Assembly (NCBI RefSeq): GCF_034424215.1
Contig: NZ_CP139960.1
Location: 4,712,001 to 4,776,000 of the forward strand
From: Niabella yanshanensis
Lineage (GTDB): Bacteria; Bacteroidota; Bacteroidia; Chitinophagales; Chitinophagaceae
Reading direction: 5' to 3'
Length of the DNA stretch: 64,000 nucleotides
The notes below the pieces were generated by a model. The model was not told the origin of the DNA, ran no database searches, and saw nothing but the letters and a program-made list of their open reading frames with translations. Both the position numbers and the translations under genes were made by a program. Positions 23,239-51,683 of the stretch are shown piece after piece (positions within the stretch are counted from its first letter, which is position 1; each line of letters begins with the position of its first letter).

Positions 23239-23439
23239 CCTTAATGTGCTGAACATTGATTATCGTGTGTCTGAATATAAAGCATTCCTGGAGTATAGCA
23301 AAAAATATTGTATAATTAAGCGGGGCATCATGAAGGTATTATCAGCAGAGTTGAGAGAGTTATCGTATTTTCACTTTACTAAATTCGAACTGCGTTTTAA
23401 CTATATGCAAAATAGCAGCCACTTAGAGATCACTTGAAT

Positions 23440-24447
23440 ATGAAACAACTATCTATTAAAGACATTGCCCGGATTGCCGGAGTTGTACCGTCTACCGTTT
23501 CCTTCGTTATTAATGGTAAGGAGAAAGAAATGCGTATCAGCGAGGAAATGGCAAAAAAGATCCGGAAGATTATAAAAGAAACCGGTTATGTGCCTAACCG
23601 TTCCGCAGCGAGCCTGCGTACCGGCAAAACACATGTAATCGGGTTGATTGTTGAAGATATCTCCAACCGTTTTTTTGCATCTCTCGCCAAAGCAATTGAA
23701 GATATCGCCTACCAGGTAGGATATCGCCTTGTGTATTGCAGCACCGAAAATGACGATAAAAAAGGCACCGAGTTAATAAGGATGTTGCATAAACAGGTGG
23801 ATGGCTTCATTGTAACACCCACCAGCGGTATGAAGGAGGAGGTGTTAAAACTGAAAAAAGCTAAAAAACCGATAGTATTACTCGACAGGTATTTTACAGA
23901 TGTGGATATACCGTCGGTACTGGTAGATAATAAAGAAGGTATTCAGTCAGGCGTACAGCTACTGGCAGGTAAAGGGTACAAAAAAATAGCCTTTATTGTT
24001 ACCGCATTAGAGCAGATGCAGATGCAGGACCGCTTAAATGCATTTAAAACAAGCGCCAAAGCGCATGGGCTTTTATTTCCTGAACTGATCCTGGAGCTTC
24101 CTTTTGCAGCTGAAGAAGACGCCTATGAAGAAGGTATCAAAGCATTTCTTAAAGGTCATCAGGAGGTAGATGCTATTTTCTTTGCTACCAATTACCTGGC
24201 TATACAAGGCCTGAAGGTATTACAGGAGCTGAAATGGAAAATTCCTTCACGTGTAGCTGTCCTGTCTTTCGATGATCACGAGATATTTAAACTATACACG
24301 CCGGCTATAACGTCTATAAGCCAGCCAATTGCTGCGATAGCCAGAGAAGGTATTGAGAACCTGAGGTTGCAGATGAATGCCCAGAAAGTGCCGGCTGTTC
24401 AAGAGCTGCTGTTGCCCTCCGAGCTGATAGTGAGAAAATCTGTTTAA
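23440..24447 (+). CDS. LacI-family transcriptional regulator
   Basis: The start is ATG 23440 (MKQLSIKDIARIAGV); a TTG two codons upstream is less likely. The 335-aa protein has an N-terminal LacI helix-turn-helix (about residues 3-25, with STVSFVINGKEKEMRIS as recognition and hinge-proximal part), hinge AASLRTGKT and a periplasmic-binding-like effector domain (VIGLIVEDISNRFFASL to the end). VLSFDDHEIFKLYTP and ITSISQPIAAIAREG are typical of the sugar-binding C-half. Effector unknown. Candidate operators with central CG occur upstream of this gene, in both copies of the 68-bp element and before a GH92 gene. It is convergent with the response regulator, overlapping it by 4 bp. Confidence 0.94.
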   Translation: MKQLSIKDIARIAGVVPSTVSFVINGKEKEMRISEEMAKKIRKIIKETGYVPNRSAASLRTGKTHVIGLIVEDISNRFFASLAKAIEDIAYQVGYRLVYCSTENDDKKGTELIRMLHKQVDGFIVTPTSGMKEEVLKLKKAKKPIVLLDRYFTDVDIPSVLVDNKEGIQSGVQLLAGKGYKKIAFIVTALEQMQMQDRLNAFKTSAKAHGLLFPELILELPFAAEEDAYEEGIKAFLKGHQEVDAIFFATNYLAIQGLKVLQELKWKIPSRVAVLSFDDHEIFKLYTPAITSISQPIAAIAREGIENLRLQMNAQKVPAVQELLLPSELIVRKSV

Positions 24448-25220
24448 GATGACCTGTAAGTTTTTTTAATATATTCAGACGGCGTCATGCCGAAGTGCTT
24501 TTGAAAATTCCTTCCTAACTGGGTTACAGAATTGTAGCCTACTGTATCAATCACTTCATTTAAGCGCATATTTTTGGTGCTTAATATTTCTATCGCTTTT
24601 TTCAACCGGGTCAGGTTAATAATTTCTGCCGGTGAAAGGTCGGAAAGAGAATTTATTTTTCTATACAAACTCGTTCGGCTCATATTCATACGCCTGGCCA
24701 GTAATGGCACGTCTAAGTCTGTATTAGACATATTTTCATGAATATGATGTTCTAATGTTTCCAGGAAAGACTTGTCAATGTCATTGGATGCCATACTGGT
24801 GATCTGCGCGGTTGGAGACTTGATAAAGTAGGATTTTAACCGGTCCCGGTTCATTAAAAGACTCTTGATCTGTGCAACCAGGAACTCCATCGAGAAAGGT
24901 TTTTCGACATATACATCAGCACCAACGTCCAATCCCTCAATTTTAGATTGTAAGGTATTCTTGGCAGTTAACAGTATAACGGGTATATGGCTGAATTCAT
25001 AATTGGATTTAATCTTTTCGCAAAACTCAAAGCCATTCATTTCCGGCATCATCACGTCGCTGATGACCAGCGTAACAGGATGTTCTTCCAGCAATGCCAG
25101 GCCTTCAGCGCCGTTTCTTACACATACTATCTCATAATCTTTTTTGAGGGTATCCGAAAGCATGAACAACATATCTTCATGGTCGTCTGCAATCAATATT
25201 GTTTTATTATTATGACTCAT
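24444..25220 (-). CDS. Response regulator with receiver and AraC-type DNA-binding domains (detached HTCS output half)
   Basis: 258 aa. The receiver domain (residues 6-120) has acidic pocket ADDHED, phosphoacceptor Asp55 in VISDVMMPEM, Thr in LLTAKN and Lys107 in VEKPFS. An AraC/XylS domain fills about residues 155-258, with LARRMNMSRTSLYRKI as first helix-turn-helix and TVGYNSVTQLGRNFQKHFGMTPSEYIK as second. These are exactly the C-terminal domains of a hybrid two-component system (HTCS), but here they are encoded apart from the kinase. The start ATG overlaps the kinase stop by 11 bp in a different frame, so the two proteins are translationally coupled. Predicted role: activator of the SusC/SusD operon at 28663 through the direct-repeat element found there. 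Confidence 0.93.
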   Translation of the reverse strand: MSHNNKTILIADDHEDMLFMLSDTLKKDYEIVCVRNGAEGLALLEEHPVTLVISDVMMPEMNGFEFCEKIKSNYEFSHIPVILLTAKNTLQSKIEGLDVGADVYVEKPFSMEFLVAQIKSLLMNRDRLKSYFIKSPTAQITSMASNDIDKSFLETLEHHIHENMSNTDLDVPLLARRMNMSRTSLYRKINSLSDLSPAEIINLTRLKKAIEILSTKNMRLNEVIDTVGYNSVTQLGRNFQKHFGMTPSEYIKKTYRSS

Positions 25221-28200
25221 CGTTAGTTGGGGAATTAATATCCAGACTGCTAATTTTCAATGGGAAAGCTACAGAAAAAATATTTATATTGTTAAATACA
25301 TTGTATTCCATTTTTCCCTGATGTAATTGAACAAGCGAGTAAACCAGCGAAAGCCCTATGCCCGAGCCTCCTACGCCTTTTTGATGATGACGTACAAAGG
25401 GTTCAAATATATGTGACCGCATATCCTCCGGAACAGTTGCTCCGTCGTTAGTTATGCTAAGCGTTACCCATTGCGCTACCTTATTGATCTCAAAATTTAC
25501 GGTAACCTGCTTATGGCAGTACTTTATTGCATTATCAAGCAGGTTACTGATAATTTTTACCAGGGCTTCTTCATCGGCAGCTATGATTATTCCGCCGGCA
25601 GGAGGCTCAAAACGAAGCGTGATGTTTTTTTCTGCAATAGCGGGAGAGAAGGACTGTAAAAGTTTTTCAGTGATTACTACTACATCCAGTTCTGCAAGAA
25701 ACAGGTGATAATGCTCTGTTTCAATTTTCCTGAAATCAAGCAACTGGCTTGTTAGCTCCAATAATCTCTCTGTGTTGCTGTTCATGATCTGAAGATATTG
25801 GTGCAGGTGTGGAGCATGGGTTAGTGCAGCCGTTATGCGTTCCAGGGGCAATTTAATAAGGGTGAGTGGTGTTTTGATCTCATGAGTAATATTTGTGAAA
25901 AAATCCATTTTAGATTGATACAGCTCCTTTTCTTTATTTAAGGTAAATACATTCATTTTATAAAGCTGCTTCTCTTTCTGGCGCCGGGTATAATAGCTGA
26001 GGATTGCCATAATAGAGGCAACGATAAGAATAACGTAGAGAAAATAAGCAAGTTTTGATTGCCAGAACGGCGGTAGTATTTCAATGGACAAGGTCTTGCT
26101 GTTGGGCATCCATTCGCCATTATTATTGGTAGATCTGACACTGATATGATATTTGCCGGGCGGCAGGTTAGTGAAGGTGATTTTCCGGCTGTTACCAATA
26201 GGATACCAGCCGCCATTGTTGATTTGGTAAGCATATTCAATATTGGTTGGATCTGTATAGTTGAGCGCCACGTAATCGATATTAAAAGTGGCTTCATTGT
26301 AAGCAAGTGTAACCCCGTCTTTATTGATCAGAGGAGTGTCATCTTTAGCTCCGGCTACAGTAGCCGAAGTCCCTAATTGCTGCAACCCGGTTATATAGAG
26401 TAAGGGGATATATTGACCGGGCCTGTGAAATGCCGGATTAAACCTGATCAGACCTTTAATGCTACCCAGGTAGATCTGACCGTCGGTGTCTTTAAACGCC
26501 GACTGGTAATTGAATTGGTTATTGAGTAGCCCGTTATATTGTCTGAATATTTTTATTTTTTTTGTTGTTGCTTCCATTAAGGCAAGACCACGGGATGTAG
26601 GGATCCAGTAGTTGCCCGAATTGTCTTTAATGATACTGTAGATAGTATTGCTGGGCAAGCCTTCATCCTGACTATAGTGTAGCAGGGTTTTGTTTTTCAA
26701 ATCGATGAGAAATAATCCGTCGATGGTGCAAACCCAAAGGTGATCGTCAGGGTCTGCCATCAGATAGAGTATACGGGTGCGCCCCAGTCTGTTGTCTTTA
26801 TCTGCATAGAGCTTAAAAGATAATGTGTCTTTATTATTGATGTAGAACAAGCCCTTGTTATGTGTACCAACCCATACAGTACCGTTTGTATCCTGCGTAA
26901 TAGCCGAATAAAATGCATCGCCGGGTAACGCTCTTACCGGGTAAAAGCGTTCTTTTTTAATATCGAAATGAAACAATCCGTGGGCGGTGCATATTAAAAT
27001 ACTGCCATTAGCTGTTTGCAGTATCTTGTTGATGAAATTGCTTTTTAAGTCATGGGAGCCTGCACCTGCGCTAAAGTGACGGGAAACTTTGCCACCCTGT
27101 ATATCCATAATATCAAGCCCGTGCTCAAAAGTACCAATAAGCAACTGGTTGCCGATGGCTAACAGGCCATGTACGTTGGTGCTGGAGAGACCGTTCTCAG
27201 TATCAGGGGTGTGTCGGGTAAACACTTTCTTTACAGGATCATACATAGTAAGCCCGCCATCTTCCGAACCGATCCATAGCCGGCCATAATGATCTTTGGT
27301 GATTTCCCGAACCGCATTGCCGCTTAGTGAGTGAGGGTGGGCGGTGGGAAAATATTTTTCGAAAGTCAGCGCGGCGTTAGGCAGGTAGTTCAAGCCGCCG
27401 AAATACGACCCTACCCATATACCTCCTTCGCGATCCTTACACAATGCATAAAGCGCATTGTCAGAAAGCGAAAATGGATTCATGGGGTCTTTGTGTATGC
27501 TTTGGTATTTTCCGTTAGCAGGATTATAAATATAGAGTCCGTCTTCGGTGCTTATAAAAATACTGGTATCAGAGGCCTGTAGAATGTTTCGTACAAAAAT
27601 AGTCTGATGGCTGTTTTTCTCCCGTATCAGGTGTCGCGTTTTTTTGCTTGTCAGGTCCAGCTCCAACAAGCCTTCTCTTGAACAGCCAATAAACAGGCGG
27701 TTATCTTTAGCAAGGGAAAGCGCTTCAATACTGTTCTGCGAAGGGGAAAACAAAGGATAGATTGTTGCATTTTTATGATGAATATAAACTACAGCGCCTT
27801 CAACAGATCCGGCCCAGATACCACCCTTTGGGTCCCTGGTGATAACCGAAACCTGGAGAACGCCGGGGATATATTTTTTAAATGTTTTTTTTGCAAGGGG
27901 ATCGTAATAGTATAGCTCATCCCTGAAGATGAACCATAAAAGCCCTTCGGTATCCTCACAGATACTTCGTACCGGCCCGTCCTCCATCAAAATAGGGTGG
28001 TGAAATTGATCAAGGTCTGAATCATAAGCCGCAATACCTTTTTCGGTACCCACCCAGAGATGACCTTTTCTATCTTCATACAAACAATAAACCGAATTGC
28101 TTTTCAGGCTGTGCGGGTTATTGGCCTGTTGACGGTACACCTTGAAACTATTTCCGTCAAACCGGTTCAATCCTTCCGAAGTCCCCAGCCAGATAAAACC

Positions 28201-28344
28201 ATACCGGTCTTGCAAAGCGGTGATTACAGTATTGTTGGATAAGCCATCCTCCACCTGGTAATGCCTGAAATCAAATGGCTGAGCTTTTACATGAGCTATA
28301 CAATAAAAGCAGGTAAACAAAAACAAAGCAAAATATCTCATCAT
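25210..28344 (-). CDS. Hybrid-type sensor histidine kinase with Reg_prop propellers (detached HTCS sensor half)
   Basis: The start is put at 28344 (MMRYFALFLFTCFYCIAHVKAQ, a signal peptide); the frame remains open for 38 codons upstream without signal features. The 1044-aa protein has Reg_prop repeats forming two seven-bladed propellers (about residues 25-660, repeated GxIWVGT/GLxxxD units), a Y_Y_Y domain (about 660-735), one membrane helix (LAYFLYVILIVASIMAIL), HisKA with His821 in FFTNITHEIKTPLTL, and HATPase_c with N box ISNLLDNAIKY and G box GSGIGLSLV. It ends after the ATPase domain, where a normal HTCS would continue into a receiver and AraC domain. The periplasmic part should bind an oligosaccharide of the co-regulated locus. 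Confidence 0.94.
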   Translation of the reverse strand: MMRYFALFLFTCFYCIAHVKAQPFDFRHYQVEDGLSNNTVITALQDRYGFIWLGTSEGLNRFDGNSFKVYRQQANNPHSLKSNSVYCLYEDRKGHLWVGTEKGIAAYDSDLDQFHHPILMEDGPVRSICEDTEGLLWFIFRDELYYYDPLAKKTFKKYIPGVLQVSVITRDPKGGIWAGSVEGAVVYIHHKNATIYPLFSPSQNSIEALSLAKDNRLFIGCSREGLLELDLTSKKTRHLIREKNSHQTIFVRNILQASDTSIFISTEDGLYIYNPANGKYQSIHKDPMNPFSLSDNALYALCKDREGGIWVGSYFGGLNYLPNAALTFEKYFPTAHPHSLSGNAVREITKDHYGRLWIGSEDGGLTMYDPVKKVFTRHTPDTENGLSSTNVHGLLAIGNQLLIGTFEHGLDIMDIQGGKVSRHFSAGAGSHDLKSNFINKILQTANGSILICTAHGLFHFDIKKERFYPVRALPGDAFYSAITQDTNGTVWVGTHNKGLFYINNKDTLSFKLYADKDNRLGRTRILYLMADPDDHLWVCTIDGLFLIDLKNKTLLHYSQDEGLPSNTIYSIIKDNSGNYWIPTSRGLALMEATTKKIKIFRQYNGLLNNQFNYQSAFKDTDGQIYLGSIKGLIRFNPAFHRPGQYIPLLYITGLQQLGTSATVAGAKDDTPLINKDGVTLAYNEATFNIDYVALNYTDPTNIEYAYQINNGGWYPIGNSRKITFTNLPPGKYHISVRSTNNNGEWMPNSKTLSIEILPPFWQSKLAYFLYVILIVASIMAILSYYTRRQKEKQLYKMNVFTLNKEKELYQSKMDFFTNITHEIKTPLTLIKLPLERITAALTHAPHLHQYLQIMNSNTERLLELTSQLLDFRKIETEHYHLFLAELDVVVITEKLLQSFSPAIAEKNITLRFEPPAGGIIIAADEEALVKIISNLLDNAIKYCHKQVTVNFEINKVAQWVTLSITNDGATVPEDMRSHIFEPFVRHHQKGVGGSGIGLSLVYSLVQLHQGKMEYNVFNNINIFSVAFPLKISSLDINSPTNDES

Positions 28345-28374
28345 CAGACAGTAATTACAATATGTTTCAAAATT

Positions 28375-28442
28375 GGTACAATTTGATGACATTTTGAGAC
28401 AAAATGAAAAATCGTTTTTGCTATAGAAGGATATCTTTACAA
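28375..28442 (+). promoter_or_regulatory. Candidate HTCS-binding element and promoter, copy 1
   Basis: A 68-bp block matching 36680-36747 at 53 of 68 positions without gaps. It contains a direct repeat TACAATTTGA (28377-28386) and GACAAAATGA (28398-28407) spaced 21 bp start to start, a central-CG near-palindrome (28407-28420) and a promoter -7-like TATCTTTAC (28432-28440). Two repeats two helical turns apart suit an AraC-type dimer. It faces the + strand operon starting at 28663 and would give a leader of about 215 bases. Confidence 0.75.
28407..28420. promoter_or_regulatory. LacI-type operator candidate within HTCS element copy 1
   Basis: AAAAATCGTTTTTG shares 13 bases (AAAATCGTTTTTG) with the reverse complements of the sites at 23225 and 51670. 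It lies between the direct repeat and the -7-like element, where a bound repressor would block transcription. Confidence 0.5.
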
Positions 28443-28560
28443 TCAGTTTGCCCGGCAATGAAATTAATTTGAACCAGAATTGGCCATAGTGAAAGAAATA
28501 TAAAATATACCTGCTACGACGCTTTATTGATCTGTAAACTTCGGGAATACTTCAACTGCT

Positions 28561-28577
28561 CAAACAGTAACTGTTTG
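28561..28577. promoter_or_regulatory. Perfect 17-bp palindrome CAAACAGTAACTGTTTG in the leader of the SusC/D operon
   Basis: Two 8-bp arms around a single base, 85 bp upstream of the first start codon. The one-base centre rules out a simple hairpin, which favours a dimeric DNA-binding protein. I did not see a second copy in the window, and the regulator is unknown. Confidence 0.5.
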
Positions 28578-28662
28578 TTAACAGGAGTAGTGTGCGTGGT
28601 AGCCCGGCGGGCAAACCCAATAAGGAACGGATTCTCAAATTGTATTTATAAACAACTGTCAT

Positions 28663-29988
28663 ATGAAACGAAATTTCTTATTGCATTTTAAGTATTTATG
28701 GGGTATTATAGCATCGCTTTTTATAGTGTTTGCCTGTAAAAAAGATGAGGCTGCTCAAAAGGATCGGCCCATTCCCTTTGATCCCTCCAAACCGGTGACC
28801 ATTGAAAGGTTCACCCCCGATAGTGGCGGTGTTACCACGCAAATGGTTATTTATGGGAGCAATTTTGGTACGGATACTTCCCAGATAAAGGTTTATATAA
28901 ATGATAAACGAGCGCCTTTAATAGGTTCATCAGGCTCCATTTTATATGTATTAGTACCATCCAAAGCGGGTACCGGCGATGTAAGGGTCGTAATGGGTAC
29001 CGGCGCTGATACGAAGGAAGTGAAATCAACTATGCCCTTTAGGTATATTTTCAGGCCATCGGTAAGTACATTAGCTGGTTTTACCAACGAAAGAGGAGAG
29101 TCTTCAATAGTAGATGGGGATATAAAAAAGGCCCAGTTTGAGGAACCCTATTGGCTTTGCTTCGATCAGCATAAAAATATCTATCTGCTGGAAGAATCGA
29201 GGGGACTACGATTCATAGACTCCGCGTTAACAACAGTAAAAACACTTTTTAGAAGCGGTAACGGATTGAGCCGTGTACGAACCTTATCATTCAACCCAAC
29301 CTGGGATACTTTATATGTGACTAATGATCAGGGTGATGACAGGGGCATCAGCTCGGTAGTGCTGACACCTATTTCAGGGTTCACACGTTGGAATGCCCTA
29401 ACTTATAGTAAACAATGCAACGGCGGTGATGTGCAGCCGCAAACAGGCGATTATTTTATTAACTCTTATGCTAACGGGCAAGTATACCAATGGGATCGTG
29501 GTACCAAGTCTTTAAAAGAATTATACAGAGTGGGTGATAATCAATGGGAATTTAATATACAGTTTGCTCCGAGTGGTGATTTTGCCTATCTGGTAGCCGT
29601 AAACAGGCACTATATACTAAAAGCTGATTATAACCGGCAAACCCGCACACTGGAATCACCGGTACATTTCGTGGGCCAAAGAAGCTCCGCCGGTTACCAG
29701 GATGGAGTGGGAACAGCAGCCAAGTTCAATGAACCACACCAGGGTGCTTTTGATGAATTTGACAATTTTTATGTGTGCGATAGAATGAACCATGTAATCC
29801 GCAAAATAACGCCAGATGGAGTTGTAAGCACGTTTGCGGGCAGGCCTAACCAATATGGATACACGGATGGTGCTTTGAGAGATGCCCGCTTTGACCGCCC
29901 ACATGGTATAATCTACAATAAGGACATTGGAACATTTTACATAGCCGACCAGAAAAACCGGCGCATCAGAGTAATCACAACCGAATAA
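28663..29988 (+). CDS. IPT/TIG and NHL-repeat lipoprotein (probable surface glycan-binding protein)
   Basis: 441 aa. The lipoprotein signal has lipobox IVFAC (Cys25). An IPT/TIG Ig-like domain covers about residues 45-130 (VTIERFTPDSGGVTTQMVIYG). The rest is an NHL-type beta-propeller with AGFTNERGESSIVDGD, DGVGTAAKFNEPHQGAFDEF, MNHVIRKITPDGVVSTFAG and QKNRRIRVITTE. Such TIG-NHL proteins are frequent members of SusC/SusD operons and are thought to bind glycan at the cell surface. It is the first gene of the operon and ends 11 bp before susC. The long leader holds the HTCS element and a palindrome. Substrate not evident. Confidence 0.87.
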   Translation: MKRNFLLHFKYLWGIIASLFIVFACKKDEAAQKDRPIPFDPSKPVTIERFTPDSGGVTTQMVIYGSNFGTDTSQIKVYINDKRAPLIGSSGSILYVLVPSKAGTGDVRVVMGTGADTKEVKSTMPFRYIFRPSVSTLAGFTNERGESSIVDGDIKKAQFEEPYWLCFDQHKNIYLLEESRGLRFIDSALTTVKTLFRSGNGLSRVRTLSFNPTWDTLYVTNDQGDDRGISSVVLTPISGFTRWNALTYSKQCNGGDVQPQTGDYFINSYANGQVYQWDRGTKSLKELYRVGDNQWEFNIQFAPSGDFAYLVAVNRHYILKADYNRQTRTLESPVHFVGQRSSAGYQDGVGTAAKFNEPHQGAFDEFDNFYVCDRMNHVIRKITPDGVVSTFAGRPNQYGYTDGALRDARFDRPHGIIYNKDIGTFYIADQKNRRIRVITTE

Positions 29989-29999
29989 AACCAGCCATA

Positions 30000-32900
30000 A
30001 TGAGAAAATATATCATTCTACTTTTTCTAACCTTTACGTTAGGCAGCTTACTGGCGCAGGATGTGGAAGTGATCGGTACTATTACCGATCCTACCAATGC
30101 ACCTATGCCAGCTGTAAGCATCACTATTAAAGACCAGGCCGGCCTTGGTACTTCTTCCAATGCCGACGGGAAGTATAAGATAAAGACCGATGCGTATAGT
30201 ATTCTGGTGTTCTCTTTTGTGGGATACAAAACACAGGAAATTAAAGTAGGTCAAAAATCGCTTGTAAATGTAGTGATGCAGCCGGCAGATTCCAGTATTA
30301 TGGACCAGGTAGTTATCACGGCAACCGGTATTAAAAAGAAGATCACCAACACAGGAGCAATTACAACTGTTAATATCGATGATATCAGGGTTCCGGGAGC
30401 CAATATCACCAATGCGCTGGCAGGTAATGTAGCCGGAATTATCGCCATGCAAACTTCTGGCGAGCCCGGCTTCAATAACTCGCAGTTTTGGATCAGGGGT
30501 ATGTCAACCTTTGGTGCTAACCAGGGTGCGCTGGTAATGGTAGATGGCTTTGAGAGGCCTTTCAACGAGATCAATATTGAGGACATAGAATCTTTCTCGG
30601 TATTAAAGGATGCATCGGCTACAGCTTTATACGGTTCCAAGGGTGCAAATGGAGTTATTTTGATTACCACCAAGAATGGTAAGGCGGGCCGAATTGCTAT
30701 CGATGGCAGAGTGCAGGCAGGCTACGTAACCCGAACACGCACGCCTGAATATGTAGACGGCTATGAATATGCAAAGCTGGTAAATGAAGCCCTTATTACC
30801 CGTAACCGCGAGCCGCTATACACACCTAATGAACTGGAGATTATTAAAAATAATCTGGACCCGGATCTCTATCCAAATGTAGACTGGATGGATCTGATGT
30901 TGCGTCCTTCTACCAATAATTTAAACGCCTCTCTCAATTTCAAAGGGGGTGGATCTACTGCCAGGTATTTTGTGTCTACAGCCTATTTTAATGAAGGCGG
31001 CATGTACGAAAGTGATGCCTCATTAAAAGAGTATAAAACCAATGCCAACCGCGAGCGGTGGAATTATCGCACTAATTTCGATTTTGATATCACTAAAACA
31101 ACTTTACTGCGCCTGGGTGTTGCCGGATTTTTGGAGAAAAAGAATTCACCTGGCTTAGGACATTTTATCTGGGAATCGCTGGTTGGTACCAATCCTACGG
31201 CAACGCCTGTATTATACTCGAATGGCCTGGTACCTGCTTATGGCACAGGGGCTCAAACTAATCCATGGGTGCTTACTACTCAAACAGGTTACAAAGAGTT
31301 CTGGCAAAACAATATCAATACCAATGTTAATGTGGAACAAAGGCTCGATTTTATTACCAAAGGTTTAAGAGCCGTGGCCCGTGTGGCTTTTGATGCTGAT
31401 AGCCGCAACGAAATATTCAGGCAGAAGTGGCCGGAGCAGTTTAATGTGGAAAGAAGAAGAGACCGCAATGGTAACCTGGTATTCGTACGCAAATCACCAG
31501 AATCGCTGATGTTTCAGACCAGTGCCGCCAGTGGTACACGTATTTTAGAGTTGAACGGCGAGCTGGTATATAACCGAAATTTTTCCGGTCATAATGTTGA
31601 TGCATTGGTTAGGTATTTTCGCCGTGAGTCCAGAAGTTCTGTAAGTGTGGGCACTGATATTGCTAACGGCATACCTTATCGCAATCTTTCTTTTTCAGGC
31701 CATACAGGATATTCTTTTAGAAATAAGTACCTGGCCGCTTTTGATTTTGGCTATACTGGTTCGGAGAATTTTAGAGTAGGCAGGCAGTTCGGATTTTTTC
31801 CTGCAGTTTCAGGTGGATGGGTGATTTCTGAGGAGAACTGGTTTAGAAAAGTTCCTTGGCTGGATCTTCTTAAAGTCCGGTACTCCCATGGTTGGGTAGG
31901 TAACGACAACTTGGGCAGACGCTTTGCCTATTTAAGCGTGCTGGATTATTACCGGAATGGAGATGGAGTGATAGACCGCAGTTTTAATTTTGGTGATTTG
32001 GTGAATCCTAACCGGTTCAATGCTTTGGGGTATATGCAGGTAGCCTCCAATGAATTAACCTGGGAAACAGGTGTGAAAAAAGACCTGGGTTTAGAGATCA
32101 ATATTTTAAAGAACATGTTTACTTTTTATATGGATCTTTTTGAGGAAACGCGCGACGATATCTTTATACAGCGCAACTTCCTTCCTGCAATGGTAGGTAT
32201 CACCAGCGCTCCGTTTGCAAATGTGGGGAAAACATTGAATCGCGGCTTTGATGGCAACTTCTCGTTCCGGAAAAACCTGGGCCAGGTAGACTTTACAGCG
32301 CGGGGCAATATCACTTATTATAGAAATGAGATCGTTGAAAGAGATGAGCAATATAATTTTTATCCCTATCGCTCACAGGAAGGTTTCCGGATAGATCAAA
32401 GAAGAGGTTTGATAGCAGAAGGACTATTTAAAGATTATGAAGAGATAAGAAACAGCCCGCGTCAGACGTATGGAGCTTATATGCCTGGCGACATCCGGTA
32501 CAAGGACGTAAACGGAGATGGCGTCATTAATGATGATGATATCGTACCTATCGGTGCCAGCAACAGGCCCGCACTGATCTATGGTTTAGGTACTTCTGCC
32601 AGATGGAAGGGCATTGACTTTAACATACATTTCCAGGGAGCCGGACGATCAGCCTATTTTATTGATGGACCCAGTGTTTATCCTTTCACTGCTGGTTCCT
32701 GGGGTAATATTTTAACCGAGGCCGGTAATCCAGCCAACAGGTGGATATCTGCAGATATCTCGGGCGATCCTGCCACAGAAAACCCCAATGCAAAGTATCC
32801 AAGGTTAAGTTATGGGGGTAACGCCAATAACTATCGACCTTCTACCTACTGGCTGAGAGACGGGCAGTACCTGAGATTAAAGACCCTGGAGCTGGGATAT

Positions 32901-33080
32901 TCTTTTCCTAAGCTGCAACTCCAGAAATTCCATATGTCTGTAGCCCGTATTTATGTAGTAGGCCAGAATCTTTTCGTATGGGATAAATTGAAGATATGGG
33001 ATCCGGAACTGGCAAATGGTAATGGCATGGCTTATCCGCCTGCTAAAACGATAACAGTCGGACTAAATATTACATTATAA
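30000..33080 (+). CDS. SusC-family TonB-linked outer-membrane transporter
   Basis: 1026 aa with signal peptide ending about SLLAQD. Order: CarboxypepD_reg domain (about residues 22-105, VIGTITDPTNAPM), then a TonB-dependent plug (about 115-225) with the SusC signature LKDASATALYGSKGANGVILITT, then the large barrel ending TITVGLNITL. There is no STN domain, which fits control by a two-component system and not by sigma/anti-sigma signalling. It forms the transport pore with the SusD protein encoded 73 bp downstream. The transported oligosaccharide is unknown. Confidence 0.96.
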   Translation: MRKYIILLFLTFTLGSLLAQDVEVIGTITDPTNAPMPAVSITIKDQAGLGTSSNADGKYKIKTDAYSILVFSFVGYKTQEIKVGQKSLVNVVMQPADSSIMDQVVITATGIKKKITNTGAITTVNIDDIRVPGANITNALAGNVAGIIAMQTSGEPGFNNSQFWIRGMSTFGANQGALVMVDGFERPFNEINIEDIESFSVLKDASATALYGSKGANGVILITTKNGKAGRIAIDGRVQAGYVTRTRTPEYVDGYEYAKLVNEALITRNREPLYTPNELEIIKNNLDPDLYPNVDWMDLMLRPSTNNLNASLNFKGGGSTARYFVSTAYFNEGGMYESDASLKEYKTNANRERWNYRTNFDFDITKTTLLRLGVAGFLEKKNSPGLGHFIWESLVGTNPTATPVLYSNGLVPAYGTGAQTNPWVLTTQTGYKEFWQNNINTNVNVEQRLDFITKGLRAVARVAFDADSRNEIFRQKWPEQFNVERRRDRNGNLVFVRKSPESLMFQTSAASGTRILELNGELVYNRNFSGHNVDALVRYFRRESRSSVSVGTDIANGIPYRNLSFSGHTGYSFRNKYLAAFDFGYTGSENFRVGRQFGFFPAVSGGWVISEENWFRKVPWLDLLKVRYSHGWVGNDNLGRRFAYLSVLDYYRNGDGVIDRSFNFGDLVNPNRFNALGYMQVASNELTWETGVKKDLGLEINILKNMFTFYMDLFEETRDDIFIQRNFLPAMVGITSAPFANVGKTLNRGFDGNFSFRKNLGQVDFTARGNITYYRNEIVERDEQYNFYPYRSQEGFRIDQRRGLIAEGLFKDYEEIRNSPRQTYGAYMPGDIRYKDVNGDGVINDDDIVPIGASNRPALIYGLGTSARWKGIDFNIHFQGAGRSAYFIDGPSVYPFTAGSWGNILTEAGNPANRWISADISGDPATENPNAKYPRLSYGGNANNYRPSTYWLRDGQYLRLKTLELGYSFPKLQLQKFHMSVARIYVVGQNLFVWDKLKIWDPELANGNGMAYPPAKTITVGLNITL

Positions 33081-33153
33081 AATTGTTGTGGATAAAGCCA
33101 TCATTAGATTTTAATAATCGGGTGACTTTTTTCATACACCAAATATTATAAAG

Positions 33154-35166
33154 ATGAAAAAAAGTTTTGTAGCATTCGTCACAGCCCTCCTGGTATTGCA
33201 GTTGGCCAGCTCCTGCAAAAAGTACCTGGACATGGAACATTTTTTTAAAGACCGCCAGAATATAGATACTGTTTTTGCACGCAGGGATTATACCGAGCAA
33301 TGGCTGGCAGACGTATATACTCATCTAAGAGGCCCTAATACAGATGTAGGAAATAAGAATGATGTATTGTCTAATTTCCTTTCAGATGATATGTTTTTCG
33401 GTGATAGGATAAAAGACGGGAGGTTTTCTAATTCCGAGTATAAAAACTTTAAGAACGGAGATTATAACGAGGCTAACTGGCAGGAGTCGTGGGCTTCCTG
33501 CTATCAGGGTATCCGGAAGGCTTCCATTTTTATTGATAATGTCGATAAAAACCGCCAGATGACCCGGGAAGAGATAACTGATCGCAAAGCACAAGCCAGG
33601 TTTTTAAGGGCCTATTACTATTGGCTGTTGATCAGGAAATATGGTCCCGTACCATTGGTGCCCGAACACGGCCTGGATTATACTGAAAGCTATAGTGATC
33701 TTTCCTTACCTCGTAATACACACGACGAATGTGTTGATTTTATCACAAAGGAACTGGCTTTGGCAGCCAAAGATCTGCCTGCTTCACTCAGGGACTCGCG
33801 TAATCTGGTTCGTCCTACTAAAGGTGCTGCTTTAGCTGCGAGAGCAAAGGTATACCTGTACGCTGCAAGTCCTTTATATAATGGCAATGCCGATATGGCG
33901 GATCTGACAGATGATAAAGGAAAGCAATTGATTGCTCAGCAATACAACGAAGAAAAATGGGCCAGGGCAGCCGCAGCAGCCAAAGAAATAATAGACCTGG
34001 GCGTATATAAATTGTACACCTATCCTTATCATGCTGAAAGCCAGGGACCAGACTATCCGCCGACGATTATTCCTCCGTTTAACGCTAAATATTCTAATGC
34101 TAATTTTCCTAATGGATGGAAGGATATTGATCCAATGGAATCGTACCGGGCCTTGTTTAACGGAAACGTATCGTTCCTGGGTAACCCTGAAGTAATATTT
34201 TCAAGGGTTACGGAAATTGGAAGCCAGTTAACAACAGATCTGCCCATGCACCAGGCGCCTTATTCTTTAAATGGCTGGAATACGTACGGTCTTACTCAAA
34301 AGCAGGTAGATGCTTATGCCATGAGCGATGGCAGCGATGTGCCTTTAAGCCCGAGAGTAACAGGATTCACTGCCAGCAACACCTCACACCTTCCTTTGCC
34401 GGCCAATGTATCGCTGCAATACGCTAACAGGGAGCCCCGCTTTTATGCATCAGTTGCTTATAACGGAAGTATATGGTATCGTACCAGCATTAACCTGCAG
34501 TCAGAACGGGAAAAGCAGGTGTTTTACTATCGTGGTTTGGCTGATGGAAAACAACCTGCGTCTCCTGAATTCTATATCAGAACCGGTATTGGTATCAAAA
34601 AATATGTAAATACACTGGATGCTGCATTTAGAAGCACGCCGGAGGGAGGTTATAATGTTCCCAAAACAGAACCCGCTATAAGGTATGCAGAAATATTGCT
34701 GATCTATGCGGAGGCGATGAATGAGCTCGGCAGCGCACATAGTATCCCAACTTTTGACGGTAGTGGTAATGTCAGCGTTAGCCGCAATGTTTCAGAAATG
34801 AGCAAAGCCATTAGCCAGGTGCGCATACGGGGTGGTGTACCTGATCATGAAGCAGCGGTATACGCCTCAAGAGACGAACTGAGAAAAAAGATAAAAAGGG
34901 AATGGCAGATAGAGTTCCTTGCCGAAAATCACCGGTACTTTGATTTAAGGCGATGGAAGGATGCGCCGGTTGAAGAAGCAACACCTGTGATGGGCTGTAA
35001 TATGGATATGACTTCAAACCAGAGAGATCTTTTTCATACACCAGTAATCATTGCGTCCCTACCCACGATTTTTGTGAAGAAAATGTACCTGTGGCCAATT
35101 CCCCATGAAGAACTGAGAAGAAATGTTAGATTAACTCAAAACCCGGGATGGACAACCCCTTATTAA
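33154..35166 (+). CDS. SusD-family (RagB) glycan-binding lipoprotein
   Basis: 670 aa. Signal and lipobox LQLASSC (Cys21). SusD-like N-terminal domain: LDMEHFFKDRQNIDTVFA, then RAYYYWLLIRKYGPVPLVPEHG; the RagB/SusD C-terminal domain includes RYAEILLIYAEAMNELG, KKIKREWQIEFLAENHRYFDLRRWKDA and YLWPIPHEELRRN. It is longer than typical SusD proteins because of insertions in the 300-500 region. It caps the SusC barrel and captures glycan at the surface. It lies 73 bp after susC and 19 bp before the DUF1735-type gene. Confidence 0.95.
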   Translation: MKKSFVAFVTALLVLQLASSCKKYLDMEHFFKDRQNIDTVFARRDYTEQWLADVYTHLRGPNTDVGNKNDVLSNFLSDDMFFGDRIKDGRFSNSEYKNFKNGDYNEANWQESWASCYQGIRKASIFIDNVDKNRQMTREEITDRKAQARFLRAYYYWLLIRKYGPVPLVPEHGLDYTESYSDLSLPRNTHDECVDFITKELALAAKDLPASLRDSRNLVRPTKGAALAARAKVYLYAASPLYNGNADMADLTDDKGKQLIAQQYNEEKWARAAAAAKEIIDLGVYKLYTYPYHAESQGPDYPPTIIPPFNAKYSNANFPNGWKDIDPMESYRALFNGNVSFLGNPEVIFSRVTEIGSQLTTDLPMHQAPYSLNGWNTYGLTQKQVDAYAMSDGSDVPLSPRVTGFTASNTSHLPLPANVSLQYANREPRFYASVAYNGSIWYRTSINLQSEREKQVFYYRGLADGKQPASPEFYIRTGIGIKKYVNTLDAAFRSTPEGGYNVPKTEPAIRYAEILLIYAEAMNELGSAHSIPTFDGSGNVSVSRNVSEMSKAISQVRIRGGVPDHEAAVYASRDELRKKIKREWQIEFLAENHRYFDLRRWKDAPVEEATPVMGCNMDMTSNQRDLFHTPVIIASLPTIFVKKMYLWPIPHEELRRNVRLTQNPGWTTPY

Positions 35167-35185
35167 AACTGATAATTTTTCAATC

Positions 35186-36151
35186 ATGAAATATTCTTAC
35201 TTATTAATATTATTGTTTAGCCTACTGACTGCAGGCTGTAACAAGGAATGGGAAGACGAGCTATTTGTAAAGGATGTAGCTTTTGTTAAGAACGGGGTAG
35301 TTCCTGTATATGCTAAATACCTTTCAACAGGAGGCGCCGTTACATTGAAAGTTCCGGTGGTTTTAAGTGGCAGCACTGAAAATACGGAAGAGGTACAGGT
35401 TACATTAGAACTGGATACAGATACACTGCAGAACCTTAATTTTGACCGGTTCAGGAACAGGCAGGATTTATACTTTATACAATTGCCCACTTCTAATTAT
35501 TCCTTTAGCTCCAATACGGCTACTATTCCTAAAAATTCCAATCTGGGCTACTTTGATTTAAACCTGAAGATGGAGAATATGGATATGTATAACAAGTATA
35601 TACTCCCGGTAAAGCTGGTATCCACTTCCAAATACGGTGTTTCCCAGCGCAGATGGTATAAGAAGTCGCTCATGCAGGTAATACCTTTTAACGATTACTC
35701 CGGTAATTATTCTGTGCCGGGCCAGGTAAAAAGAACAGAAGGGAATGAACCTGCTTTGACGGTGCCTAATCGTACTGCCTGGGTAGTTAATGAAAATACC
35801 GTATTCTTTTATGCAGGTGTAATTGAAGAAGAAGCTTATGACAGGTTGAAATATAAGATTAGCGCTCGTTTTAACACTGATGGCACAATTACTTTAACAG
35901 CCAATGATCCGGCCATTAAGTTTAAACAAAACGGCGGTACCTACACTGTTGCAAAAAAAATGGACGATGTACAGCCTTACCTGCAAAGAACAATTACCAC
36001 CATGAACCTGGATTACGAATATGAAGACATCACGCAGCCTACCTTTCCACTGCGGTACAGATTCACAGGAGCCATGGTATTGGAAAGAGTAAGAAACACA
36101 CAGATACCGGACGAGGATCAGCAGGTGGTGATCGATAGCGATATGTTCTGA
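35186..36151 (+). CDS. DUF1735-type surface lipoprotein (SusE-position)
   Basis: 321 aa. Lipobox LLTAGC (Cys18). The N-terminal half looks like DUF1735 (KDVAFVKNGVVPVYAKYLSTGG, YNKYILPVKLVSTS) and the C-terminal half like a DUF4361/DUF4973-type beta domain (DYSGNYSVPGQ, PLRYRFTGAMVLERV). Proteins of this build follow SusC/SusD in Bacteroidota loci and serve as accessory glycan binders. No catalytic motif is visible. It sits 19 bp after susD and 31 bp before the small secreted protein gene, inside the operon. Family naming is from recall. Confidence 0.78.
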   Translation: MKYSYLLILLFSLLTAGCNKEWEDELFVKDVAFVKNGVVPVYAKYLSTGGAVTLKVPVVLSGSTENTEEVQVTLELDTDTLQNLNFDRFRNRQDLYFIQLPTSNYSFSSNTATIPKNSNLGYFDLNLKMENMDMYNKYILPVKLVSTSKYGVSQRRWYKKSLMQVIPFNDYSGNYSVPGQVKRTEGNEPALTVPNRTAWVVNENTVFFYAGVIEEEAYDRLKYKISARFNTDGTITLTANDPAIKFKQNGGTYTVAKKMDDVQPYLQRTITTMNLDYEYEDITQPTFPLRYRFTGAMVLERVRNTQIPDEDQQVVIDSDMF

Positions 36152-36182
36152 TACAATTTTTAATGATGATAAAAAGAGGCTT

Positions 36183-36599
36183 ATGAAACATGTTTTTTTA
36201 GCTAGCTTGTGTTTAGCCGCCCATTTGTTTGTGTCGGCGCAAAAGATCTCAACAAAGCTGGAGCTTTTCGACGGAACCTGGCAGGTGACTATGCAAAGCT
36301 TACCCGGGGAACCAGGTAAGTTTGCGCCCCCAAAAACAAATGATTTTAAAGTGTATGACGGGGTGGGCAATTTCAGCCATATTATTTACGTGAATAATAA
36401 ATACGTAGAGCTGTCGAAGGGAACCATAGAATTTACTTCGGATTCTACCTATACGGAAAAACTTGAAAAGCATCTGGCGGTGCCTGCTTCGGTAAAAGAA
36501 GGTAAGATTGTATTCAGGTTTTTAGATGCGGATACATTTTTAATGAAATGGTCGCTCAATAATCTAAGCGGACAGGAAGTCTACAAAAGAGTAAAATAG
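36183..36599 (+). CDS. Small secreted protein, DUF4488/lipocalin-like
   Basis: 138 aa with a signal peptide (MKHVFLASLCLAAHLFVSAQ). The mature part opens with ELFDGTWQVTMQS, continues with FSHIIYVNNKYVELSKGTIEF and ends MKWSLNNLSGQEVYKRVK. This fits the DUF4488 lipocalin-like pattern (xGTWx start, small beta-barrel). Function unknown; it may bind a small ligand in the periplasm. Last gene of the operon, 31 bp behind the DUF1735-type gene. The next gene lies nearly 400 bp away behind the second HTCS element. Confidence 0.65.
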   Translation: MKHVFLASLCLAAHLFVSAQKISTKLELFDGTWQVTMQSLPGEPGKFAPPKTNDFKVYDGVGNFSHIIYVNNKYVELSKGTIEFTSDSTYTEKLEKHLAVPASVKEGKIVFRFLDADTFLMKWSLNNLSGQEVYKRVK

Positions 36600-36679
36600 G
36601 CGATTCTATTTCATGGCGCCTATGAATTCGACAGATATACAATGCCTGTAAAAGAAATAGTAATATCCGTATGAGAAAT

Positions 36680-36747
36680 GGTACAAAATGAATAATTTTT
36701 GAGACAAATTGAAAAATCGATTTTGTTCGTAAAGGTTACCTTTACAA
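36680..36747 (+). promoter_or_regulatory. Candidate HTCS-binding element and promoter, copy 2
   Basis: Second copy of the 68-bp block at 28375 (53 of 68 identical, ungapped). Direct repeat TACAAAATGA (36682-36691) and GACAAATTGA (36703-36712) at 21-bp spacing, then a central-CG palindrome and TACCTTTAC (36737-36745) as -7-like element. It lies 248 bp before the DUF4965 enzyme gene. It occupies the 36600-36994 gap, in which I see nothing else of note. Confidence 0.75.
36713..36724. promoter_or_regulatory. LacI-type operator candidate within HTCS element copy 2
   Basis: AAAATCGATTTT is a perfect 12-bp palindrome. It matches the AAAAWCGWTTTT core shared with 23225, 28407 and 51670, and sits between the direct repeat and the -7-like element. 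Confidence 0.5.
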
Positions 36748-36994
36748 CACATGCAATTCACCTGGAAAATGGTATATTAATCACAACCAGATGAGAAAAT
36801 GATTGCAACGATGCTTAATGTTCATAATGCCTGTAATGTTCAGTTCTGATCTTTCAATGGAGAACGTGCTATCAGGCCATTATTTTAAATCCCTCATTGA
36901 AGTCGCCGGGTTTTTTAAAGTAGCATATTGCTTTCATTAGCCAGTTCATTAATTACATTTAAACTTGTTTCAGATAAAATATAAAAATCTTTCA

Positions 36995-39466
36995 ATGATT
37001 AAGTATTGTTTAAAGCGCCTGAGTGTTTTTGTTTTTATTTTTTCTTTCCTGGCCGGTAATAGCCAGACCAGGAAAGCCCCTGCCTATCCGTTGATAACCC
37101 ATGATCCCTATTTTAGTATCTGGTCTTTTACAGATGATGCTACCGCATCACCCACTAAACACTGGACGGGTGCTGATCAATCACTAACCGGCTTTGTTAA
37201 AGTGGATAACAAAATATACCGCTTCCTGGGAAAAGAAAGCAAAGCTTATAAGGTTTTATTACCGGCATCAGAAGATAAAAGCTTTTCGGTTAAATATACC
37301 GAAGCTATCCCCGCTGAAGGATGGCAGCAAATTGGTTATAATGAAAGCGGCTGGAAGTGGGGCCAGGCGCCGTTCGGAGATGAAGCAGGAAATTTTAAAA
37401 CGGCATGGCGTTCTGATGATCTTTGGGTAAGGAGAGAATTTACAATGGTTAATAATAAAGAGGAAGATGTATACCTGAAGCTAAACCACGATGACAATGT
37501 AGAAGTGTATCTCAATGGACAAGAGATTTATAATGCAACCGGTTGGGTACATAAGTATATTTATATTCCCATTAAAAATGCTTCAACCGTCCTGAAGACC
37601 GGTAAAAATGTGCTGGCAGTACATATCAAAAATACTGCGGGTGGCCGTCACCTCGATTTCGGATTGGTAAAGGAAGAAAAGACCGTTGCTACTAAAAATG
37701 TGTTAAATGCCATTCAGAATAATGTAGACGTCAAAGCTACACAAACCATTTATGATTTTTCCTGCGGGCCGGTTGATTTGAAGGTAAATTTCGCATCTCC
37801 GCTAATATTAACGGATGTTGATCTCATGGCCCGTCCCGTGTCTTATGTAACTTTCACCGCTACGTCGAAAGACGGACGCGCCAGAAATGTAGAAGTATTG
37901 TTTAACACATCCACCAATTTAGCTGTAAATACTCCTGCCCAGGAAGTGATCGCAAAAAAATATAATTTGGGAGACCTGTCTGTGTTGAAAGCAGGAACTG
38001 TTGCACAGCCCGTATTGGCAAAGAAAGGCGATGATCTGCGCATAGACTGGGGCTATATACACGTCGCGGTACCTCGGACGGCTAACGCACGGCAGTTTAT
38101 TGCAGGCTCGGATGAATTGTCTTTGAACGTATTCAATAAAGTTGCTAAAGTTCCGGTAGCCGTTGATCAAAAAGGAAAGCAATTGCAGTTAAGTACCATA
38201 CTGCAATTGAATACAGGAAAGTCTGTAAGTTCTAAATTGTTATTGGCTTATGATGATATATGGTCAATTCAATATTTCGGAAAGAACCTTCGTCCCTGGT
38301 GGAATAAGGATAACAGCACCTCGATTGATGCGCAATTACAGGCTGCAAATGCAGATTACGCAGCTACCATTGCAAAATGTGATGCTTTGGATAAGACCAT
38401 TTATAATGACGCCTTCAAAGCTGGCGGTGAGGATTACGCGAAACTGTGTGAGATCAGCTACAGGCAAACTATTGCTGCTCATAAACTGGTACAAAGTCCG
38501 CAGGGTGAATTGTTGTGGCTTTCTAAAGAGAATTTTAGTAATGGTTGTATCAATACAGTAGATCTTACTTATCCTTCTGCTCCTTTGTTCCTGGTATATA
38601 ACCCAGACCTTGAAAAGGGGATGATGAACGGTATTTTTTACTACAGCGAAAGCGGAAAATGGAAAAAGCCTTTTGCAGCGCACGATATAGGTACTTACCC
38701 TCTTGCAAACGGGCAGGTTTATGGAGAAGATATGCCGGTGGAAGAATCTGGTAATATGGTGATCCTTGCTGCAGCTATTGCAAAAGCGGAAGGTAATGCG
38801 GAATACGCTAAAAAACACTGGAGTACTTTGACTACCTGGACGGATTACCTGGTTAAAGATGGCTTTGATCCCGCAAACCAGTTATGCACCGACGATTTTG
38901 CCGGTCACCTGGCGCGTAATTCCAATCTCTCTTTAAAGGCTATCATGGCTATTGAGAGCTACGCGATGTTGGCTAAAATGTTAGGCAAGGAGGAAGTGTA
39001 TAAGAAATATCATGATATCGCTACTGGCATGGTGCCTAAATGGATGGAACTGGCTGCAGATGGCGACCATTATACATTGGCATTTGAAAAGAAAGGTACC
39101 TGGAGCCAGAAATATAATGTGGTTTGGGATAAAGTTTTAAAGTTTAATATTTTCCCCGAAGAAGTGTTTCAGAAGGAAATGAAATTTTACCTGGCGCATC
39201 AAAACAAATATGGTTTGCCTCTGGATAGCCGCAAGACCTATACAAAAAGTGACTGGATTTTATGGACGGCCTGCCTTACCGGAAATGACAACGATTTTAA
39301 GGCCCTGGTAAAACCCGTCTATAAATATGCATTGGAGACGCCTACAAGAGTGCCATTAGGCGACTGGCATGAAACTACCGATGGCAAACAAGTGGGTTTC
39401 CAGGCAAGAAGTGTAATTGGCGGTTATTGGATGAAAGTGTTGGACATGAAATTGAACAGCAAGTAA
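36995..39466 (+). CDS. DUF4964/DUF5127/DUF4965/DUF1793 family enzyme (glutaminase-A-like, substrate unproven)
   Basis: The start is ATG 36995, which opens the signal peptide MIKYCLKRLSVFVFIFSFLAGNSQ; a TTG at 36965 is less likely. The 823-aa protein begins with a DUF4964-like segment (YPLITHDPYFSIWS, LTGFVKVDNKIYRFLG). A jelly-roll domain (about residues 100-235) resembling the GH2 sugar-binding fold follows (DLWVRREFTMVNN, NVEVYLNGQEIYN). Then come DUF5127 and an (alpha/alpha) barrel of DUF4965/DUF1793 (ISYRQTIAAHKLVQSP, FAGHLARNSNLSLKAIMAIESYAML, PLGDWHETTDGK). Homologues are often called glutaminase, but the barrel and jelly roll look glycosidase-like. It stands alone between an HTCS element and a strong terminator, so it is probably co-induced with the SusC/D operon. 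Confidence 0.83.
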   Translation: MIKYCLKRLSVFVFIFSFLAGNSQTRKAPAYPLITHDPYFSIWSFTDDATASPTKHWTGADQSLTGFVKVDNKIYRFLGKESKAYKVLLPASEDKSFSVKYTEAIPAEGWQQIGYNESGWKWGQAPFGDEAGNFKTAWRSDDLWVRREFTMVNNKEEDVYLKLNHDDNVEVYLNGQEIYNATGWVHKYIYIPIKNASTVLKTGKNVLAVHIKNTAGGRHLDFGLVKEEKTVATKNVLNAIQNNVDVKATQTIYDFSCGPVDLKVNFASPLILTDVDLMARPVSYVTFTATSKDGRARNVEVLFNTSTNLAVNTPAQEVIAKKYNLGDLSVLKAGTVAQPVLAKKGDDLRIDWGYIHVAVPRTANARQFIAGSDELSLNVFNKVAKVPVAVDQKGKQLQLSTILQLNTGKSVSSKLLLAYDDIWSIQYFGKNLRPWWNKDNSTSIDAQLQAANADYAATIAKCDALDKTIYNDAFKAGGEDYAKLCEISYRQTIAAHKLVQSPQGELLWLSKENFSNGCINTVDLTYPSAPLFLVYNPDLEKGMMNGIFYYSESGKWKKPFAAHDIGTYPLANGQVYGEDMPVEESGNMVILAAAIAKAEGNAEYAKKHWSTLTTWTDYLVKDGFDPANQLCTDDFAGHLARNSNLSLKAIMAIESYAMLAKMLGKEEVYKKYHDIATGMVPKWMELAADGDHYTLAFEKKGTWSQKYNVVWDKVLKFNIFPEEVFQKEMKFYLAHQNKYGLPLDSRKTYTKSDWILWTACLTGNDNDFKALVKPVYKYALETPTRVPLGDWHETTDGKQVGFQARSVIGGYWMKVLDMKLNSK

Positions 39467-43479: not shown

Positions 43480-43486
43480 GGTATAA

Positions 43487-44635: not shown

Positions 44636-44660
44636 TTGTGAAGAGTTTTGTAGTAAAGTT

Positions 44661-46283: not shown

Positions 46284-46295
46284 ACCTAATTGTCT

Positions 46296-49700: not shown

Positions 49701-49847
49701 ACTTTCGTTATCTGTTTTTAGATGATGGTTTTATTGCTTTTCAGGCAAGTTGAACTGTCGTTTTACGGCGGAAAATGTTCCAGCATTTTCTGCCTTTTTT
49801 ATTATCAGGCTTTCGTTTATTTCATGAGCTTTTTTTATGGTGAAGAA

Positions 49848-50918: not shown

Positions 50919-50984
50919 TTCTTAAGGATATACCATTATAAGTCGGTTTTATTATGATCATACCCCTAAATGAATCAAAAAAAA

Positions 50985-51563
50985 TTATGCTTTTTTTCTT
51001 AAAAGATGCTCTGCCATGTCCGGAAGCATTTGTTGAATGGTGATCGTTAGCTTTTTAATCGCAATAGTCATCTGGCTTTCAACGGTTTTTACAGATAGCT
51101 GCAGTAATTGCGCTACCTCCTCGTACTTAAGACCTTCTTCTTTAATTAACCGGAAGATCAGCCTGCATCTGGAAGGTAACTGGTTAATTGCATCGGTAAT
51201 ATGGCCGATGTTCTCATTGCTTATATAGACCAATTCCGGATTGGAGTAGGAGAGTCCCATATCGTCGGGATAGTCCTCAAGGGATATTGTTTGATGCTTC
51301 TTCAGTGCACTAAGCGACGCGTATTTAACCGCAGTATAAATGTAATGCGAAGGACTTTTGATAGATACCATGGTCTTTCGGTTCAGCCAAAGTTTGACAA
51401 ATACATCTTCAACTATTTCTTCAGCCAGCTGACGGTCTTTCAAAATATTGGATGCGAAAGAAACCAAACCAGGGAAATAGAAATTAAACAACTCGTCAAA
51501 CCCCTTTTGATCGTCATGCTCGGCAATCAATAACAGCAGGTATCGTTTACGATCTTCATTCAT
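50985..51563 (-). CDS. ECF-subfamily RNA polymerase sigma factor
   Basis: 192 aa. Region 2: FDELFNFYFPGLVSFASNI and LAEEIVEDVFVKLW. Region 4: INQLPSRCRLIFRLIKEEGLKYEEVAQLLQLSV with recognition helix KTVESQM. This is the Bacteroidota FecI-like group paired with FecR and STN-SusC. It should activate the downstream susC operon when the transporter meets its glycan. The gene diverges from the GH92 gene at 51767; the 203-bp space between them holds a LacI-type operator candidate and a good promoter facing GH92. Confidence 0.95.
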   Translation of the reverse strand: MNEDRKRYLLLLIAEHDDQKGFDELFNFYFPGLVSFASNILKDRQLAEEIVEDVFVKLWLNRKTMVSIKSPSHYIYTAVKYASLSALKKHQTISLEDYPDDMGLSYSNPELVYISNENIGHITDAINQLPSRCRLIFRLIKEEGLKYEEVAQLLQLSVKTVESQMTIAIKKLTITIQQMLPDMAEHLLRKKA

Positions 51564-51669
51564 AAATAATGAAAATAAAGTATGACAAAATTTGCAATTC
51601 GTTACACGGCTTTTATCGCCTTTTGAAGAATTATTTTATTTTCTTCACATCAAATATATACCTTTATCG

Positions 51670-51683
51670 CAAAAACGATTTTG
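51670..51683. promoter_or_regulatory. LacI-type operator candidate overlapping the GH92 promoter
   Basis: CAAAAACGATTTTG, with flank CCTT identical over 18 bp to 23225-23242. Its right end contains the TTTG (51680-51683) that serves as -33 box of the promoter below, so a bound repressor would block it. Confidence 0.6.

Follow-up and report, generated by a model that had tools for sequence, protein, structure and literature searches.

A 64,000-nucleotide stretch of the Niabella yanshanensis genome (contig NZ_CP139960.1, positions 4,712,001 to 4,776,000; hereafter the window) contains two similar 68-bp segments, at 28375-28442 (copy 1) and 36680-36747 (copy 2). Both lie upstream of genes of a SusC/SusD-type locus, and we analyzed them as candidate operators for a sensor kinase and response regulator encoded next to copy 1. 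The genes of the locus are the following.

24444 to 25220, minus strand: stand-alone response regulator of 258 aa, receiver plus AraC-type HTH_18 (Pfam PF00072, PF12833, PF00165)
25210 to 28344, minus strand: sensor histidine kinase of 1044 aa, Reg_prop, Y_Y_Y, HisKA and HATPase_c (Pfam)
28663 to 29988, plus strand: TIG-domain protein, first gene of unit 1 (open reading frame (ORF) list, Pfam)
30000 to 33080, plus strand: SusC-like TonB-dependent transporter, Plug and CarboxypepD_reg (Pfam)
33154 to 35166, plus strand: SusD-like protein (Pfam)
35186 to 36151, plus strand: DUF4973 / BT_3987-like_N / BT_3044-like_C protein (Pfam)
36995 to 39466, plus strand: GtaA-like enzyme, unit 2, PF16335/PF17168/PF16334 (Pfam)

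The last 11 bp of the kinase gene are also the first 11 bp of the regulator gene. Position 28344 was chosen by us as the kinase start because it gives a hydrophobic start (the listed TTG at 28458 would cross the operator), leaving a divergent gap at 28345-28662. An ATG start was likewise chosen for the GtaA-like gene, for which the ORF list has an upstream TTG at 36965; a GH92 gene follows it (Pfam). Copy 1 faces the TIG, SusC-like, SusD-like and DUF4973 genes, in that order, and copy 2 faces the GtaA-like enzyme gene. The first-pass annotation of this DNA had placed copy 2 before a distant enzyme gene; an enzyme gene is indeed found there, but it is not distant, since it forms the following transcription unit within this locus, with 8.3 kb separating the two copies. 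The same annotation put the regulator gene beside copy 1, and the Pfam domains identify an AraC-type response regulator at that place. Our own first idea for the 258-aa protein, a LytTR-type regulator, was ruled out by these domains; LytTR-type regulators likewise use direct repeats of roughly 21 bp. A LacI-family regulator gene (23434-24447) lies tail to tail with the response-regulator gene, overlapping it by 4 bp. Between the SusC/SusD operon and copy 2 there is a gene for a 138-aa DUF4488 protein (36183-36599) with no match in the corresponding locus of Niabella defluvii.

When recomputed, copies 1 and 2 align without gaps at 53 of 68 positions, the value first reported, with borders near those claimed earlier and a sharp drop in similarity beyond them. 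The next best match to copy 1 within the window reaches 34/68 on the plus strand and 35/68 on the other, and for about 300 random 68-mers of the window the best other match averages 34.6, with a maximum of 49. Each copy contains KACAAWWTGA twice at 21-bp spacing, as originally described, so that KACAAWWTGA-N11-KACAAWWTGA is matched in both without mismatch. A search of the whole genome (5,543,186 bases) with this pattern returned two exact matches, both in this locus and none beyond copies 1 and 2, and none for the reversed control; the motif is thus not widespread. Allowing up to three mismatches gave 50 matches in the genome against 32 for the control. These comprise the two exact sites, one with a single mismatch (28356), four with two (three of them inside ORFs of 60 aa or more and the other at the border of a gene) and 43 with three, showing that the pattern quickly approaches background as more mismatches are allowed. 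A chance likeness of two A+T-rich intergenic stretches could draw on that frequency at three mismatches, and on the one random 68-mer matched elsewhere at 49/68. However, the unique exact pair, the empty control and the conservation in congeners described below already contradict such an explanation, which we consider extremely improbable.

Within the two copies and just upstream of copy 1 the following elements can be placed.

28356 to 28365, plus strand: possible third half-site TACAATATGT, one mismatch, 21 bp upstream of half-site 1
28374 to 28386, plus strand: distal half-site of copy 1, TGGTACAATTTGA (10-mer match; extent from the de novo motif)
28395 to 28407, plus strand: proximal half-site of copy 1, TGAGACAAAATGA (10-mer match; extent from the de novo motif)
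28432 to 28439, plus strand: predicted -7 box TATCTTTA of the TAnnTTTG type, 24 bp past the proximal half-site of copy 1
36679 to 36691, plus strand: distal half-site of copy 2, TGGTACAAAATGA (sequence and 10-mer match)
36700 to 36712, plus strand: proximal half-site of copy 2, TGAGACAAATTGA (sequence and 10-mer match)
36737 to 36744, plus strand: predicted -7 box TACCTTTA, 24 bp past the proximal half-site of copy 2

The half-site appears to be longer than the 10-mer of the first description, at about TGRKACAAWWTGA. The third half-site is present in congener G203 and not recognisable in N. defluvii. The sequence TAYCTTTAC, noted earlier at the same distance in both copies, is confirmed there from both sequences, and is best read as a putative -7 promoter element rather than as an extra box for the regulator. 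The primary promoter of Bacteroidota combines TAnnTTTG at -7 with a TTTG around -33 (PMC7366714); the two boxes resemble it in their TAnnTTT core and in their fixed place downstream of the half-sites, which among relatives takes the form of a peak at a single distance, and differ from it in that the eighth and last base is A and not G in both copies. Transcription is predicted to start near 28446 for copy 1 and near 36751 for copy 2. A scan of the whole window at gathering thresholds found no Rfam family in the predicted leaders (28440-28662 and 36745-36994; about 215 and 240 bases). The central-CG palindrome that had been ascribed to both copies is perfect in copy 2 only (AAATCGATTT); copy 1 and four sites of two congeners have AAATCGTTTT, and we rejected the palindrome as a conserved feature.

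Paired sites are kept in the orthologous loci of two congeners. N. defluvii, whose regulator is 85% identical, has an exact site and a one-mismatch site separated by 7.8 kb, and in G203 (regulator 92% identical) both occur 8.6 kb apart. Across the genus, 7 of 17 genomes, the window's included, contain at least one place with no more than one mismatch; coordinates in G199 are identical to those of N. defluvii and the two were treated as one genome. In both G206 and G208 one such place lies beside a regulator of 57-60% identity, in the gap that precedes a SusC match. No such regulator adjoins, within the 20 kb examined, the places in G202 and G189 and the second place in G208; at L176 of G208 a 45% identical regulator lies about 10 kb away. 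The place in G189 (L178, G189:C1:4177118-4177148) has one mismatch and precedes a SusC match by about 290 bases; it is possibly a distant target in that genome. Seven further loci with regulators of 54-62% identity have similar sites, with 2-4 mismatches, between the sensor and the divergent gene. Behind such a site in G189 the divergent unit begins with a GH127-like gene and has a GtaA relative (67%) as its second gene; this arrangement is an independent link of this regulator type to GtaA. These regulator relatives are the best 80 of 570 confirmed matches, and the family sample is 195 genomes from a larger group.

The genes enclosed by the two sites have fared differently in the two congeners. 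Compared with 28747-36335 of the window, locus L172 of G203 has a regulator 92% and a GtaA-like protein 86-94% identical, with SusC and SusD at only about 52% and the TIG protein at about 40%; the transporter cassette between the operator copies thus appears either to have been replaced or to have diverged rapidly. In N. defluvii the same cassette is kept at about 88-95%. The record of that species (L003 / L173) shows many broken frames in the locus, possibly sequencing errors.

The 21-bp repeat was also looked for in the wider class of divergent gaps between sensor genes and their neighbours, from which loci without a sensor ORF or a divergent neighbour and gaps outside 60-900 bp had been excluded. 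Offset 21 stands out, with 22 of 56 gaps reaching at least 11 of 15 matches, a count that is a trend of the class and not proof of single sites; the other offsets from 12 to 60 are reached by 0-9 gaps. A de novo motif search in 23 related gaps (the window's included) returned one 34-base block of 25.3 bits, against 12.4-12.9 bits in six shuffled runs that preserve base composition only. Its consensus, AtTGAGACA.TTTGAtGAAA..tTGAgACAaATT, contains TGAKACA-like half-sites 21 bp apart. The motif set comprised loci with regulators at least 48% identical, plus L138, L139, L174 and L175 added by hand, and left out L172 and L173, which are near-copies of the window, and L006. An initial run had the -7 box inside the model; the figures given come from a repeat run without it. 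With the box thus outside the model, TAnnTTT(G/A) has one preferred distance downstream (z 5.2; 1.4 for the next best), which in the window corresponds to 24 bp past the proximal half-site. No enrichment of TTG at the -33 position was seen between motif and box in these 23 promoters, a further difference from the Bacteroidota consensus (PMC7366714), and no distance had TTG in more than two of the 23.

These related promoters also bear on whether the similarity of the copies stems from a promoter duplicated recently, or from promoter sequence in common, with no regulation by a tandem dimer. The -7 box does fall within the shared 68 bp, and the copies are 78% alike. However, the half-site pair is recovered de novo in promoters of relatives, some of them before other genes, and the bases between half-site and box vary while their spacing is constant; we regard simple duplication as very unlikely.

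A shared register, with an offset of 21 and the second repeat copy ending about 25 bp before TAnnTTTG, was found at hybrid two-component system (HTCS) genes beyond the related group. It is present in Bacteroides faecis (118 boxes, z 4.3, equalled in 0 of 3000 random placements) and among relatives not belonging to the group (143 boxes, z 4.6, 0 of 3000). These z and placement figures are generous because the position range was set after an earlier run of the test and the sets partly overlap, although nearly the same place had come earlier from the window's own relatives. The set of other relatives overlaps 31 earlier regions, includes near-duplicate species, and has one locus of B. faecis (L023, L179) in common with the set from that species. 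Some gaps are represented on both strands. Restricted to B. faecis promoters of genes of at least 900 aa, the register test failed (32 boxes, best offset 20).

In the first-pass annotation the regulator was called an HTCS. The corresponding domain set is present, with a Reg_prop sensor, HisKA, HATPase, receiver and AraC-type DNA-binding domains (Pfam), yet it is spread over two proteins, the kinase and the regulator being separate overlapping ORFs and not a single chain as in an HTCS, which joins kinase and regulator in one polypeptide (PMC11253607). Residues SHIP 77-80, D149 and K188 of the 258-aa regulator match the S/CHIP-DK contact motif published as autoinhibitory (PMC11253607), where the equivalence of D149 and K188 to the published positions is our reading of the alignment. 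Across 24 split regulators the commonest letter occurs in 21 (S), 24 (H), 21 (I), 24 (P), 24 (D) and 23 (K) rows. In a tree of 94 regulators, from 105 loci supplied, the 24 split ones share a group of 31 (support 100/98) with 7 fused ones, which requires three changes of state. The window's regulator thereby has its place among the fused HTCS regulators. With midpoint rooting only, it is likely that the split proteins arose by fission of a fused ancestor, and re-fusion is possible. Tandem geometry and autoinhibition residues thus persist without a tether. In the open-licence literature searched (titles and starts of abstracts), no description was found of split HTCSs or of a fixed distance from HTCS sites to the box.

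At least six split systems are encoded in this genome, five of them besides the window's (G000:C1 1685573, 143563, 1550193, 563384 and 5163330), and the sites could be bound mainly by a paralogous regulator, such as the 58% identical one at G000:C1:1685573, or by several split regulators jointly. The pattern derived from the related promoters is in keeping with such sharing, in that with up to three mismatches it matches two places in the genome only, copy 1 and the paralogue's own operator. Against this, copy 2 is not among the places that this pattern matches, the paralogue's operator has no exact match to the window motif, and in two congeners the window motif accompanies its own regulator gene. 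Binding mainly by a paralogue is on balance unlikely.

Taken over the evidence from uniqueness, conservation and register, each 68-bp copy is very likely an activator-dependent promoter for a tandem AraC-type dimer, coordinating the SusC/D operon with the GtaA-like enzyme gene. Comparison among genomes also supports two proposals made at the outset, namely that an AraC-type dimer would use half-sites two turns apart, a form already predicted in print (PMC3878776), and that the regulon probably consists of two units, the exact motif occurring only at two promoters that are kept in orthologous loci.

Several results weigh against this interpretation. Copy 1 of N. defluvii has its mismatch in the proximal half-site. 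The window's own gap scores 10/15, below the 11/15 cut, and several of the 22 passing gaps (L174, L139, L144) pass on a repeat other than the operator, which is why the count was given above as a trend. Only 12 of the 23 related promoters have a -7 box that matches well (5 or more of 6 matches) at the preferred distance. The lack of a -33 TTG is weak evidence for an activator in its place, because the promoters of Flavobacterium johnsoniae in general are likewise reported to have yielded no identifiable -33 motif (PMC7366714). The register does not reach significance at the remaining HTCS genes of this genome (35 boxes, z 0.7, 758 of 3000 random placements). Finally, the cognate regulator is assigned from its position, since related split systems exist and the paralogue has a similar operator.

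Under the favoured reading, in which a tandem dimer activates both promoters, the sensor kinase would bind a glycan fragment and phosphorylate the regulator. Two regulator monomers would then sit head to tail on the same face of the DNA, on half-sites of the TGRKACAAWWTGA type 21 bp apart. The downstream monomer would end 24 bp before the TAnnTTTA -7 box, just upstream of a would-be -33 element, and presumably contact RNA polymerase there. Copy 1 would drive the TIG-SusC-SusD-DUF4973 operon and copy 2 the GtaA-like gene, so that both would be on together.

This kind of switch is already known, because 21-bp tandem sites have been predicted for Bacteroides HTCSs. For 16 of these, direct-repeat operators with two sites averaging 21 bp apart were predicted upstream of susC/D units; several of the regulons include a second, distant unit, and a dimer on one DNA face was proposed (PMC3878776, Ravcheev et al. 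2013). The locus described here resembles them in having a direct repeat of that spacing upstream of susC/D and of a second unit. It is a variant that lies outside Bacteroides, has a separate AraC-type regulator where those are single-chain, and keeps a constant distance from repeat to -7 box; the main text of PMC3878776 contains no occurrence of 'TAnnTTT', and no link to a -7 box was seen there. Binding of BT4124 and BT4663 to promoters of susCD homologues was tested and reported by electrophoretic mobility shift assay (PMC11253607, Gao et al. 2024). Those regulators share the receiver, the HTH_18 domain and the S/CHIP-DK residues with ours and are one polypeptide with their kinase, whereas here the proteins are separate and no tether would join the two DNA-binding domains.

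Downstream, at 42349-53917, lies an adjacent locus with SusC/SusD/SusE, GH76, GH92 and a FecR anti-sigma/ECF sigma pair. Two kinds of regulation thus stand side by side, a split kinase/regulator locus and a FecR/ECF sigma locus. Both stand near families of alpha-mannan enzymes.

Binding sites of such sugar-sensing regulators are mostly predictions so far, and a fixed register from repeat to box would permit targets to be predicted without prior motifs. Whether a rigid HTCS grammar (half-site, 21 bp, half-site, set distance to the -7 box) extends across the Bacteroidota and has survived the separation of regulator from kinase in a Chitinophagaceae/Sphingobacteriaceae lineage is, in our judgement, evenly balanced. 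If it does, tethering does not set the tandem geometry, and HTCS targets would be predictable genome-wide from geometry, with no need of a motif. The five further split pairs of this genome raise the question of how untethered paralogues avoid cross-phosphorylation. The split lineage would be a natural experiment on whether kinase and regulator need to be one chain for tandem binding and for insulating parallel pathways from one another.

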